Of a stretch of 64,000 bases of DNA, positions 8,865 to 54,608 are shown in pieces (positions within the stretch are counted from its first letter, which is position 1; the number at the start of each line of letters is the position of its first letter). The stretch covers positions 1 through 64,000 of the forward strand of contig JAKFVC010000005.1 in the NCBI GenBank assembly GCA_021732415.1, read 5' to 3'. Under the pieces are notes generated by a model, which saw only the letters and a list, made by a program, of their open reading frames with translations, did no database searches and had not been told where the DNA came from. The position numbers and the translations under genes were made by a program. Source of the DNA: Planctomycetaceae bacterium (GTDB lineage: Bacteria > Planctomycetota > Planctomycetia > Planctomycetales > Planctomycetaceae).

Positions 8865-8890
8865 TCGGGTTTTTGTTGTTGGGCCCAAGG

Positions 8891-9104
8891 TATCGTGGGA
8901 CGGGTCTCCAGGCCCGTCCGTCCAGCAACGAAAACAGAGAAACACGGAAATCGCCGAGAATCGTGCCTCGTTATGTCGGAAGGAAGAGCACCACTCAATA
9001 TCGATGCCGTGTTGTGGACTCCCTTCGCGGAAATCGATGAGAGTTTGGCCCGTTCGGACCGCGCGGCAGCGGGACGGACGGGCCTGGAGACCCGTCCCAC
9101 GATA
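8891..9104. repeat. Long palindromic element, GGGACGGGTCTCC family, copy 1
   Basis: TATCGTGGGACGGGTCTCCA at the left end is mirrored by TGGAGACCCGTCCCACGATA at the right end, so the arms extend about 30 bp through GGCCCGTCCGTCC. The roughly 150 bp interior lacks the CTTCGTGTCCTTTG inner palindrome of other copies. It lies 37 bp before the ppc start. Confidence 0.85.
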
Positions 9105-9141
9105 CCGTACAACTTAGCAATACACATCAGGGATTTTTGCA

Positions 9142-11913: not shown

Positions 11914-12000
11914 GTAGCCCGACTCTCTGAGTCGGGTGCATTCGCCAGGCCGTCAGGCCGCGGCGAATCGATATGACCCGACTTGGAGAGTCGGGCTACG
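11914..12000. repeat. REP palindrome pair downstream of ppc and RAYT
   Basis: GTAGCCCGACTCTCTGAGTC on the left and GACTTGGAGAGTCGGGCTAC on the right pair with each other, and each forms a small hairpin alone. Between them, TTCGCC and GGCGAA add an inner stem. The right unit supplies the stop codon (CTA on the plus strand, 11996-11998) of the RAYT gene. Confidence 0.85.
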
Positions 12001-12796
12001 GTGGTCGCTGTGCGAACGCGTCCAGCCACGGGGCAGCGCTATAACGATAGTCACCGGTGCGGGCTTTTGCCGCTTCAGGATTGTTCGCGATGTAGCGACG
12101 AAATATCGTCAACTCCTCTCGGTCACGAACGATGCGATCATAAGATTCGTACTGCCAAAACCGAGGCTTCGGGTGATCTGGACCGCACGGCTGAACTTCC
12201 GGGCTCTGTGGCGCGAGCCATTCGCCGATCAATCTCGATGACCACTTCTTGATCGAACCAAGAATCTCTTCCAATTCGTAATCACCGATTGGCGTCAACA
12301 GTGCATGCACATGGTTCGGCATGATGACGGCATCACCTAACCATAAGCGGGTGCCGTGAAAGTGCGCCGACGAATCGAGGACAATCTTCTGGGGCAAGCC
12401 GTGCTTTAAGACGCAACTTCCGTGACTGCGATCCAGTTCTTCATGCAGCATCCGTGCCTGCCGCCTCTCGAATGCCCGTCTTATTCCTTCAGGAATCTGG
12501 CTATAAAGGAGATTGAAGCGGTCCGAATCGGATTCCTTGAGTTTTGCGTCCAAATTGTGCGCTCGATACCAGCGTTGGCGGATATCGAGCCATTCGGCCA
12601 GCACCTTGAGCGGAATGGAATCGTCCTGACGAAACGTTACGAAATAGGTCGCACCACGCTGCCGCCAATGCGGAAGCCCGCGAACGTATACTCGGCATGG
12701 TCCATTCGGATCGAATGGATTGAACGTAGCCCGACTCGCTGAGTCGGGAGCCTTAATCTCGTCTTGGCGAGATCGATTCTCACTCGAATCACTCAT
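11996..12796 (-). CDS. REP-associated tyrosine transposase (RAYT, Y1_Tnp)
   Basis: RAYTs are HUH-superfamily single-strand nucleases that act on REP hairpins. This one shows the fold's start (RGATYFVTFRQDDSIPL), the HxH metal motif in IMPNHVHALLTP, SIKKWSSRLIGEWL, and FWQYESYDRIVRDREEL followed by RRYIANNPEAAK, where the catalytic tyrosine is expected. From ATG 12796 it has 266 residues; a GTG 57 nt upstream is also in frame. REP units surround the gene, one lies inside its 5' coding part, and another provides the stop. It looks intact. Its activity is unproven. Confidence 0.88.
   Translation of the reverse strand: MSDSSENRSRQDEIKAPDSASRATFNPFDPNGPCRVYVRGLPHWRQRGATYFVTFRQDDSIPLKVLAEWLDIRQRWYRAHNLDAKLKESDSDRFNLLYSQIPEGIRRAFERRQARMLHEELDRSHGSCVLKHGLPQKIVLDSSAHFHGTRLWLGDAVIMPNHVHALLTPIGDYELEEILGSIKKWSSRLIGEWLAPQSPEVQPCGPDHPKPRFWQYESYDRIVRDREELTIFRRYIANNPEAAKARTGDYRYSAAPWLDAFAQRPP
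12725..12752. repeat. REP unit inside the RAYT coding sequence
   Basis: CGTAGCCCGACTCGCTGAGT followed by CGGGAGCC is a REP hairpin located within the 5' part of the RAYT gene. On the minus strand it encodes the residues DSASRAT. Confidence 0.8.
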
Positions 12797-12849
12797 GGCA
12801 GCCGCATTATCAAATTGGTTGGATTTGGTTTGAAACGGCAATGCTGAAT

Positions 12850-12876
12850 GCACCCGACTCAGAGAGTCGGGCTACG
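12850..12876. repeat. REP unit upstream of RAYT
   Basis: CACCCGACTCAGAGAGTCGG followed by GCTACG is the same REP unit in the opposite orientation. With 11914-12000 it brackets the RAYT gene. It ends 6 bp before the stop of the next gene. Confidence 0.8.
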
Positions 12877-16344: not shown

Positions 16345-16634
16345 GGCTGTGGTTCCTTCTGAGTCGTGTACTTGGCTGTGAATCTGGGTGTGGCCGGTGT
16401 GTTTCGTCACCGGTTGTTTGTATGGCAGGGATGTAAAGCAGTCTGTATGCCAAGTGAAACATTTTGTTTCGGAATCTTGACAGACGGGAATCCGACGAGC
16501 CGTAACTTGTTAAGAGTCTTTGGCTAACGACGTCTGCGTGACGGAGAGCGGGCGCCCAAGAAGAGGGCTCGGAGTGATGCCGAAACTCACCATGTTGCGG
16601 GGGCATCAGCATCATGAGGCGAGAAAGCCACAGC

Positions 16635-16861
16635 GTATCGTGGGACGGGTCTCCAGGCCCGTCCGTCCCCTTGCTTTCGACCACGAAACTGCATTGCTCG
16701 CACGCCGTACATCGAGTGAACTTCCTTCGTGTCCTTTGTGACCTTCTGTTAAAAATGATTTGGAACAGAAGATCGCGAAGGACACGAAGAAATATGGATC
16801 GCGGGAATGTTAATTCCAGTTGGAGCTGGACGGACGGGCCTGGAGACCCGTCCCACGATGC
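16635..16861. repeat. Nested palindromic element, GGGACGGGTCTCC family, copy 2
   Basis: Outer arms (ATCGTGGGACGGGTCTCCAG and its complement) span 16637-16859. Inside, CTTCGTGTCCTTTGTGACCT followed by TCTGTT (16731-16757) pairs with AACAGAAGATCGCGAAGGAC followed by ACGAAG, making a second hairpin. It ends about 12 bp from the lptB stop. Confidence 0.88.
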
Positions 16862-16871
16862 GTCCAACTCT

Positions 16872-24189: not shown

Positions 24190-25293
24190 CGCATCATCCC
24201 TTTCTGAAATCTTTTTTGAAGGTAGTAACCGAGACTCAAGTCACTCAAGGTCAACGATCAACATGAGATCTCGGCTCATGAAATAATCGCTGCTGGTGAC
24301 GGAATGTCAATTCGATCGAGGACGCGGCGACATTAAAAGACAGGACGTGGGTTTCGTCGCCATCAGGATTTTACCCCTCGGCGGTTGAAGATGTCTATCT
24401 CAGGACCTCAACAAATTTCACATATGAACAGTATTTCGCCATATCGAGTCGCGTCGTATCGTGGGACGGGTCTCCTGGCCCCGTCCGTCCTCCGGCCGTA
24501 AAACAGGAAACGGTGATACTCACAAGAAGTGCCGCACAAAATCAGGCACGTAGTGCATTGAACCTTCTTCCTTCGTGTCCTTTGTGACCTTCTGTTCCAA
24601 TCTTTTTAAACAGAAGGTCACGAAGGACACGAAGAAATGCAAGAAGAGAGGGACGGACGGGCCTGGAGACCCGTCCCACGATACGCGGACCGCATCTGCC
24701 AAAACGGCACCTCGTCGTTTCAGTTTCTCGTCCAGTTCCTTTGGTACTTGATTTGTCGCGTCCCTGAACCTGCCGTCGCGGGGCCGCGATGGAACCGCAA
24801 AGGGTGTCCGGCATTCGCCTCCGCGTTTTCTCACGTTCAAGTCCCAATTTGGTTTGCGTCAAACCGAATCTTGCCTTGATCGGACCGGAGTACTAGAATT
24901 CGGCAAGTTTGCCCGATCCTTACAGACTCTATCACCGGAATTCCTGGATCGATCCAAGTTCGTGTGAGAATTGTTCTTGTGAGGGATGGCACGAAAGGTG
25001 CACTTTCCCGATGTAAACCGAACTTTCGTCACGTTCGGTCGCTCTGAATTTCAGAGATTCCGACCGTTGCCTGCGACGAGCCGTTCCTGAGGTATGTTTG
25101 GAAGTCCTGACTGTCCATAAATCCGCATCTCGCTCAAAGTGACGAGAGTTAAAAAAATTTCGAAGACACACACGATGACTCGGAGAGCCATCGGCCAAGC
25201 CGCAAGATAGCGGGAAAATGTCGAGACCCCGTCGACAGGAATTTGACGAATCGCAACGGCTGTCACGCCGCAGATTCCGAAAGGAAGATCTCA
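24190..25293. other. 1.1 kb divergent intergenic region upstream of clpC
   Basis: The gap contains the nested palindrome at 24456-24685 and otherwise no recognisable gene. A candidate sigma70-type promoter reading toward clpC is TTGCCT (24871-24876), a 17 bp spacer, then TAGAAT (24894-24899); it would give a leader of about 390 nt. No CIRCE element was seen. Confidence 0.4.
24456..24685. repeat. Nested palindromic element, GGGACGGGTCTCC family, copy 3
   Basis: Outer arms GTATCGTGGGACGGGTCTCC and GGAGACCCGTCCCACGATAC are 228 bp end to end. The inner inverted repeat is CTTCGTGTCCTTTGTGACCT with TCTGTT (24571-24596) against AACAGAAGGTCACGAAGGAC with ACGAAG (24609-24636), separated by about 12 bp. 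Confidence 0.9.
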
Positions 25294-28894: not shown

Positions 28895-29115
28895 ACCGTG
28901 GGACGGGTCTCCTGGCCCGTCCGTCCCCTACTTCGTATTCCTTCGCGTCCTTTGTGACCTTCTGTTTCAATCATTTTTAACAGAAGGTCACGAAGGACAC
29001 GAAGGAGAAAATTCAATGCACTTTGTGTCTGGTTTTTGATCCACTGTGTAACACGACCGCGATTCCCGATCGACGACGGCGGAACGGACGGGCCTGGAGA
29101 CCCCGTCCCACGGTA
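28895..29115. repeat. Nested palindromic element, GGGACGGGTCTCC family, copy 4
   Basis: Outer arms ACCGTGGGACGGGTCTCCTG and its complement (a C is inserted on the right: GACCCCGTCCCACGGT). The inner inverted repeat is CTTCGCGTCCTTTGTGACCT with TCTGTT against AACAGAAGGTCACGAAGGAC with ACGAAGG, at about 28940-29006. It lies between rph and the Gfo/Idh gene. Confidence 0.9.
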
Positions 29116-33520: not shown

Positions 33521-33600
33521 CTAATCTTCGTGTCCTTTGTGACCTTCTGTTCAAAATGCATTGGAATTGGAACAGAAGGTCACGAAGGACACGAAGAATG
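33521..33600. repeat. Inner palindrome alone (CTTCGTGTCCTTTG)
   Basis: CTTCGTGTCCTTTGTGACCT with TCTGTTC pairs with GAACAGAAGGTCACGAAGGA with CACGAAG across about 20 bp. This is the inner part of the nested elements at 16635, 24456 and 28895, here without the GGGACGGGTCTCC outer arms. Confidence 0.88.
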
Positions 33601-37130: not shown

Positions 37131-37188
37131 CCCCCGTGGCGGACGCTGCCAGCGTCCGAGTTCAGACGCTAGCAGCGTCTGCCACGGG
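37131..37188. repeat. GACGCTGCCAGCGTC double palindrome
   Basis: CCCGTGGCGGACGCTGCCAG with CGTCCG, then CAGACGCTAGCAGCGTCTGC with CACGGG: two hairpins that also pair with each other through CCCGTGGC/GCCACGGG. It lies between the convergent PVC and M42 genes. Confidence 0.8.
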
Positions 37189-46114: not shown

Positions 46115-46336
46115 GTGTCGTGGGACGGGTCTCCAGGCCCGTCAGTCCCTGTAACATTCGACGCAACACAGATTCAACCCTCGCGAGCTTCGCGCAGCGC
46201 ACGAGTTGAATTTGGATGAACAACGATGCGGCAAGCAAATGCGACTCGCGCGCTGCGCGAAGCTCACTTGGATTTAAAGGACTTCCAAGTCGAATGTTAG
46301 GCGCACTGACGGGCCTGGAGACCCGTCCCACGACAC
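46115..46336. repeat. Nested palindromic element, GGGACGGGTCTCC family, copy 5
   Basis: Outer arms GTGTCGTGGGACGGGTCTCC and GGAGACCCGTCCCACGACAC span 222 bp. The interior differs from other copies: ACATTCGAC and GTCGAATGT form a second arm pair, and GCGAGCTTCGCGCAGCGC and GCGCTGCGCGAAGCTC a third. It ends next to the stop of the DUF1501 gene. Confidence 0.88.
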
Positions 46337-53372: not shown

Positions 53373-53388
53373 TCAATAGGCCTTGTCT

Positions 53389-53614
53389 GTAGCCTGACTC
53401 TCCGAGTCGGGTGCATGGGAGGGCGAGGCTCCCGCCGAGCCTAAGACGAGCTTAAGCTCGGCGACCGCCGGAGGCATCGAACACGGCCTCCGGCGGACGC
53501 CGACCTGCGGTCGTCTTAGGCTCGGCGGGAGCCTCGCCCTCCCATCTTGCCGAGAAGCCCTTCACGTCAGCCACGCGGAAACGACATACATCCCGACTCA
53601 GAGAGTCAGGCTAC
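53389..53614. repeat. REP pair enclosing a GGGAGGGCGAGGCTCC hairpin
   Basis: Outer units GTAGCCTGACTCTCCGAGTC (53389) and GACTCAGAGAGTCAGGCTAC (to 53614) enclose the long hairpin at 53415-53545. Two repeat families are nested at one site, between the MmcQ gene and the isomerase. Confidence 0.85.
53415..53545. repeat. GGGAGGGCGAGGCTCC hairpin, copy 3 (long form)
   Basis: ATGGGAGGGCGAGGCTCCCG with CCGAGCCTAAGACGA pairs with TCGTCTTAGGCTCGGCGGGA with GCCTCGCCCTCCCAT. An inner CCGCCGGAGGC/GCCTCCGGCGG stem extends it to 131 bp, compared with about 87 bp for other copies. Confidence 0.87.
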
Positions 53615-53633
53615 AACTTGCAGGAGCCCTGTG

Positions 53634-54608
53634 ATGGCAAGTCAACAGTCCCTCAAATTGTGCTTCTCGACGCTGGCCTGCCCCGATTGGAGTTGGGCCG
53701 ACATCCTGCATTACGGTCCGCAGTTTGGCTATCAGGGTGTCGAGGTCCGTCTGCTGGAACGTGAGACCGACTTGCTGGTGCGGCCTGAGTTTCAACCGGA
53801 TCAACTCTCCCAACGGCGCGCGGAGCTGGAGGCGGCCAAGTTCCAGGTGGCGGGGTTGGGATCCTCGGTGAGGTTTGATTACCTCGACGCTGATGTTCGT
53901 TCGCAGCAGATTGAAATCGGTCAGCGGTACGTCGATCTGGCACATCAATTGCGTTCTCGGTTTGTGCGAGTGTTTGGGGATGTCTTCACCGCCGGGCAGG
54001 ACGCCTCTGGTCGCGAGCGGGTATTGTCGCAGGTCGTTGAGGGGTTAACGGCTCTGGGGCACTACGCCGAGCCGCGCGGTGTGCTGGTGTTGATGGAGAC
54101 GCATGGTGATTTTGCCGCCACTCAATGGATGCAGACGGTGATGGAGCGGGTCGATCATCCGGCGGTGGGAGTCCTCTGGGATACTCATCATCCTTGGCGA
54201 TTTTACAACGAACCGTTGTCCGAAACTTTCAATCGCCTGCGTCCCTGGATTCGTCATACCCATTGGAAGGACTCCGTGGCCGACGCTGCTAGCGTCGGTA
54301 TTCGAATCAGTACCGACGGCAGTACAGACGCTGGCAGCGTCTGCCACGGGGGCGCAGCTGCCGCGCAAGCTCACTCATTGATGAGTGGTCACAAGCCCGC
54401 ACACTATGTGTTGTTTGGTAGCGGAGAATTCCCCGCTCTCGACGCGCTGCAATTGTTGGACCTGGCTGGTTATGACGGTTGGTACAGCCTTGAATGGGAG
54501 CTGGCCTGGCATCCGGAATTGGAACAACCTCTGGTTGCTTTGCCGGACTTTCCGAGAAAACTGATTGCGCTTGATCATGCGGTACGCGCCGGCAATGCTG
54601 GCCGATAG
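53634..54608 (+). CDS. Sugar phosphate isomerase/epimerase (AP-endonuclease-2 fold)
   Basis: This 324-residue TIM-barrel protein of the xylose-isomerase-like superfamily has FSTLACPDWSWADILHYGPQ near 11, YQGVEVRLLERE near 33, VLVLMETHGDFAATQWMQTV near 147, WDTHHPWRFYNEPLSET near 181 and RHTHWKDS near 206. The family's metal-ligand Glu, Asp and His positions appear to be present. After HWKDS, about 26 residues (roughly 214-239) are encoded by a GACGCTG palindrome pair; the fold resumes at HYVLFGSGEFPALDAL. ATG 53634 follows CAGGAG. The substrate is unknown. Confidence 0.85.
   Translation: MASQQSLKLCFSTLACPDWSWADILHYGPQFGYQGVEVRLLERETDLLVRPEFQPDQLSQRRAELEAAKFQVAGLGSSVRFDYLDADVRSQQIEIGQRYVDLAHQLRSRFVRVFGDVFTAGQDASGRERVLSQVVEGLTALGHYAEPRGVLVLMETHGDFAATQWMQTVMERVDHPAVGVLWDTHHPWRFYNEPLSETFNRLRPWIRHTHWKDSVADAASVGIRISTDGSTDAGSVCHGGAAAAQAHSLMSGHKPAHYVLFGSGEFPALDALQLLDLAGYDGWYSLEWELAWHPELEQPLVALPDFPRKLIALDHAVRAGNAGR
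54274..54350. repeat. GACGCTG double palindrome inside a coding sequence
   Basis: CCGTGGCCGACGCTGCTAGC with GTCGG and CAGACGCTGGCAGCGTCTGC with CACGGG are two facing units of the family seen intergenically at 37131. Here they lie in frame within the isomerase gene. Confidence 0.85.

Follow-up and report, generated by a model that had tools for sequence, protein, structure and literature searches.

A REP-type stem-loop dimer read in frame within an isomerase-like gene of an uncultured planctomycete

Main finding

The genome of an uncultured planctomycete (Planctomycetaceae bacterium) contains a head-to-head dimer of REP-type stem-loops within the open reading frame of a xylose-isomerase-like gene. 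A short palindromic repeat thus appears to contribute protein sequence in this organism. The evidence comes from orthologues, from a structure model and from a sister locus at which the site is empty in one orthologue. We consider it very probable that the REP dimer was inserted ancestrally and in frame and has since been kept as a tolerated loop.

The isomerase gene and its repeat

Within the 64-kb stretch of DNA analysed here (the window), a plus-strand gene at 53634..54608 encodes 324 residues plus a stop codon from an ATG start and was assigned as a xylose-isomerase-like TIM barrel gene from its open frame, Pfam and orthologues. Its frame (53634-54605) matches PF01261 at 1.7e-26 and runs without a stop codon through the repeat, as an earlier note on this DNA had stated. 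In an NCBIfam search of the protein, every match fell far under the cut-off. By fold, the best matches of known structure are Art22, AsbF and sugar 3-epimerases, with 12-19% sequence identity among the matches listed.

The dimer occupies 76 bp (54274..54349, plus strand; CCGTGGC...GCCACGG), begins with CCGTGGCC and ends with GCCACGG when its outer arms are included, and is read in frame as (S)VADAASVGIRISTDGSTDAGSVCHG. Based on sequence, unit anatomy and covariation, it comprises a left unit (54276..54298, plus strand) with a GTGG tag, the stem CCGACGCT/AGCGTCGG and the loop GCT, and a right unit (54325..54347, minus strand) with a GTGG tag, the stem CAGACGCT/AGCGTCTG and the loop GCC, which are separated by a spacer (54299..54324). 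The corresponding 15-mers are GACGCTGCTAGCGTC on the left (54282-54296), with one mismatch to the pattern GACGCT-NNN-AGCGTC, and GACGCTGGCAGCGTC on the right (54327-54341), so that the two facing units reported by the earlier note are indeed present within the coding sequence. A dimer of the same family outside the isomerase, with which the note had compared this one, was recovered from the sequence at 37134..37187 (plus strand). With up to two mismatches allowed, nine such 15-mers were observed in the window versus 0.45 expected, a count reached in none of 100 shuffles.

A REP-type repeat family in the genome

The unit GACGCTNNYAGCGTCKGCCACGG is present in 300 strict copies in the 9.87-Mb genome (350 contigs), while the reversed control yielded none. 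The anatomy of 113 strict units consists of GTGG, which was itself part of the search pattern, followed by a stem of 8 bp and a loop of 3 nt, which is GCC in 70 units and GCT in 40. One variable stem position forms a Watson-Crick pair in 106 of the 113 units (A-T in 50, C-G in 45, G-C in 11) and another combination in the other seven, and this covariation identifies the GACGCT repeat as a genuine family of REP-type hairpins. Relaxed matching in 53 stretches (333,947 bases), which cover the window and the surroundings of the first 100 copies listed, grouped the units into 91 clusters. Of these, 54 are head-to-head dimers ('-+') and 36 are single units, the remaining one being a triple; 40 of the 54 dimers are 54-56 bp long. 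Five of the 91 sampled clusters are clearly genic, and the label 'extragenic' therefore fails for a measurable share of REP copies. Among the congeneric genomes, strict units number 116 in G003, 52 in G002 and none in G001. In a class-wide draw of 297 genomes, eight contain units, including the genome studied here, and the remaining seven have one to seven each.

Further repeats and the candidate mover

The window harbours several other repeats. Just upstream of the isomerase, at 53388-53615, a GTAG-type REP pair surrounds an element of 131 bp whose inverted arms (ATGGGAGGGCGAGGCTCCCGCC...) match perfectly over 35 bp, forming nested repeats. Inverted repeats of the GTGGGACGGGTCTCCAGGCCCGTC type with 126-177 bp between their arms were identified at 8889-9106, 16634-16862, 24455-24685 and 46115-46336; because the same sequence also flanks a Y1_Tnp gene at C40:22859 (L073), these repeats may be non-autonomous derivatives. 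A palindromic family, TTCCTTCGTGTCCTTTGTGACCTTCTGTT, is located at 16722-16792, 24568-24637, 28939-29006 and 33525-33597, in two places within GTGGGACGGGTCTCCAGGCCCGTC-type arms. Furthermore, a 30-nt direct repeat ending in CATCTTTGAAATCTT occurs four times, unevenly spaced, at 2175-2630. The region 11915-12876 holds a RAYT-like Y1_Tnp gene on the minus strand (match 12080-12328) together with GTAG-CCCGACTC-TCT-GAGTCGGG REPs on both sides of it, a typical REP/RAYT arrangement.

REPs are thought to move as single-strand hairpins via RAYT (Y1) transposases (PMC3733652, PMC6006769). The genome contains 13 Y1_Tnp hits, several of which are bordered on either side by tagged REPs of their own, including the one in the window. 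A GACGCT unit flanks none of these 13 loci and none of 22 of the 24 hits in the three congeners, all in fragmented assemblies; one GACGCT core with one mismatch lies about 1 kb from a Y1_Tnp locus (L250). Because no Y1_Tnp gene flanked by a GACGCT unit was found, we infer rather than observe arrival by single-strand transposition with a RAYT/Y1 transposase acting in trans; REPs without a RAYT of their own are possible. The first candidates for the mover are the genes at C33:36268 and C40:22859, which have GTGG-tagged flanks.

Distribution and age of the insert

Alignment with planctomycete orthologues, which the earlier note had named as a check, revealed the dimer at the same isomerase site and in frame in both congeners that cover it, G003 (92% identical) and G002 (89%, partial). 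Nine family-level orthologues (51-60% identity) lack the insert, and none of the 45 aligned relatives more distant than the congeners has it. The isomerase fragment of the fourth congener, G001, spans residues 5-84 only and stops at a contig end with the site outside, so the comparison within the genus holds no empty site at the isomerase. In the DNA alignment, the spacers of the three congeners vary in sequence and differ in length by multiples of three. The 350-contig assembly is fragmented, and repeats are known to provoke misassembly, which might suggest that the repeat was misjoined into the gene during assembly or binning. However, in three separate assemblies the insert begins at an identical codon, the spacers differ and the frame is always kept, and we regard such an artefact as exceedingly improbable. 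The shared position instead indicates an old insertion that predates the split of the three congeneric genomes.

In an alignment of 48 sequences, the stretch from V215 to G252 has a length of 36, 31 and 33 residues within the genus, of 23-30 residues across 33 planctomycete relatives (median 23) and of four residues in 12 others. The earlier estimate of about 26 added residues therefore stands for what the repeat encodes but not for the net gain, since the loop exceeds the relatives' median by no more than about 8-13 residues. Since distant relatives have 23-30 residues of other sequence at this position, the insert must, on this alignment, have entered a variable linker with part of the old linker lost or replaced, rather than constituting a pure 26-residue addition. 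Pairwise dS/dN values for three congener pairs were 0.37/0.046, 0.46/0.070 and 0.42/0.046, corresponding to a dN/dS of about 0.11-0.15. With dN far under dS in all three pairs, these values indicate that purifying selection acts on the isomerase with the insert present.

Structure model and proposed origin

Structure prediction, likewise named as a check, gave a barrel that is confident apart from one loop of low confidence. The AlphaFold2 model (48 sequences) has a mean pLDDT of 90.9 and a pTM of 0.88, with residues 227-239 below 50; this segment falls between the strands with HTHWKDS and the helix from residue 240. The insert is thus probably disordered within a confidently modelled barrel, and the low model confidence together with the linker variability suggests that it may lie at the protein surface.

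Alternatively, the repeat could have been retained for a function, either as an mRNA hairpin that delays translation or shields the message, or as a peptide that alters the enzyme near its active site. The 84-nt insert region is predicted to fold strongly (-54.8 kcal/mol, z -7.4 versus 200 shuffles), the insert has been retained in three lineages, and it directly follows the invariant residues H210, K212 and D213. Any such palindrome would yield a comparable hairpin strength, however, and both the length and the sequence of the spacer have drifted, the inserted loop has low model confidence and most other sampled copies are situated outside clear genes. We therefore consider retention for function improbable.

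In the favoured account of a tolerated insertion, a dimer of two facing GTGG-tagged 8-bp stem-loops would have entered the gene in the ancestor of the three congeners, in the linker that directly follows the conserved motif HTHWKDSV. It was able to persist there because it introduced neither a stop codon in the frame used nor a frameshift, and because the encoded residues are small, polar and flexible and the loop varies in length anyway. In-frame indels would later have altered the spacer while purifying selection held the enzyme, and the insert itself would need no function. The earlier proposal of a REP-like element tolerated in frame as a loop is borne out by the 300 units, the congener-shared insert that family-level relatives lack, the low dN/dS and the low-confidence modelled loop.

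Other in-gene copies and the reading frame used

Five of the 91 clusters, including the one in the isomerase, are located in long frames whose coding score is positive to either side of the repeat. One is a single unit in an AddB-like helicase-nuclease (C26:20966; L166:7009-10464) with ADDB_N and PDDEXK_1 domains, seen only in the genome studied here (G000). The other three frames lack Pfam matches and have homologues elsewhere: a 1208-residue frame (C26:65764) whose insert also occurs in G002 and is absent in G001, a 442-residue frame (C40:10108) with the insert in G000 and an empty site in G003, and a 498-residue frame (C40:12565) whose insert also occurs in G003 and whose product appears, by eye, hydrophobic and membrane-protein-like. 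At the empty site of C40:10108, the 92%-identical G003 orthologue is 57 bp shorter with the frame kept. A sixth case, a single unit in a kinase/WD40 protein (C73:12047) with an ambiguous state in the congeners, came from frame searches. Relatives have stretches of similar length at the C26:20966 and C73:12047 sites, and these single units may be remnants or replacements rather than clean insertions.

Of the 91 clusters, 48 are bordered to either side by 30 open residues. Most of these, like most of 25 stretches from the frame searches, were rejected as chance frames because the coding score of a flank was not positive.

In five of the six in-gene copies the encoded peptide is (P)VADAASV or the partner DAGSVGHG, and in the other copy it is PWQTLPASATPTLAASATG. 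The third frame, rich in Arg and Cys, is closed in 54 of 108 readings, versus 26 of 108 for each of the other frames, and by openness alone the VADAASV frame would account for 82 of 218 open readings. A hand-worked binomial gives about 0.03 for the excess of this frame, which is suggestive only: the sixth case stems from searches favouring long frames, there are at least six in-gene cases among the matches listed, and the count leaves out a weak candidate read in the other frame, C273:1767 (417 residues, with scores of 0.01 and 0.11 on its flanks), and C4:85088 (150-residue frame, flank scores 0.01 and 0.15). Tentatively, and with rather low confidence, we suggest that the lineage has a process resembling that of the Rickettsia palindromic elements (RPEs), in which the frame (P)VADAASV...DAGSVGHG forms a tolerable linker that selection has repeatedly kept in loops, including that of the AddB-like protein. 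If so, a selfish repeat would be a recurrent source of protein linkers.

Comparison with known systems

One point of reference is the REPIN concept from REPIN/RAYT systems. Like these systems (PMC6006769), the genome has inverted pairs of tagged hairpins and some Y1_Tnp genes flanked by REPs; unlike them, it has no Y1_Tnp gene flanked by a GACGCT unit.

The RPEs of Rickettsia, the classic case, are palindromic repeats of about 150 bp, nearly half of which lie within ORFs, and are found in frame in unrelated protein genes, where the extra peptide occupies non-structured segments (PMC10969869 and PMC2996958). The GACGCT dimers resemble RPEs in manner only, with in-frame insertion in unrelated genes (the isomerase and five others), and differ in that they are mostly 54-56 bp long with far fewer clearly genic clusters in the sample.

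Assignment to the CGTC superfamily of REPs (unpaired CGTC tag, 8-9 bp stem starting with AT pairs, loop of 4-5) was rejected, as CGTC here lies within the stem, the loop has 3 nt and there is no AT start. The repeat is closer to the GTAG superfamily, which, according to PMC3733652, comprises tagged stem-loops with short loops that form head-to-head dimers in hundreds of copies, mostly intergenic and some genic. The 8-bp stem and 3-nt loop fall within the 5-13 bp stem and short loop of that superfamily, and head-to-head dimers predominate. In contrast to it, the tag is GTGG, itself part of our search pattern, and canonical GTAG is absent; the likeness to the published elements, for which 24 consensus sequences exist, is one of described features. 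Association with a RAYT gene is a further trait of these REPs; no flanking transposase was found beside GACGCT units in the fragmented assemblies. According to the same paper, most GTAG-20 units of O. terrae have GTGG as a variant of the tag, and planctomycetes are named among REP hosts. No paper on the GACGCT family was found by title or abstract in partial literature coverage, which is weak evidence.

PMC3733652 also reports REPs within ORFs in many species, with dimers encoding 20-30 residues, and intragenic targets that include DNA-repair genes, which the AddB-like repair protein with its GACGCT unit parallels. It also suggests flexible loops or linkers as tolerant sites, an idea that structure prediction and dN/dS support for the isomerase. 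In-frame genic REPs are already known from other bacteria, and the planctomycete isomerase is a further example with good comparative support.
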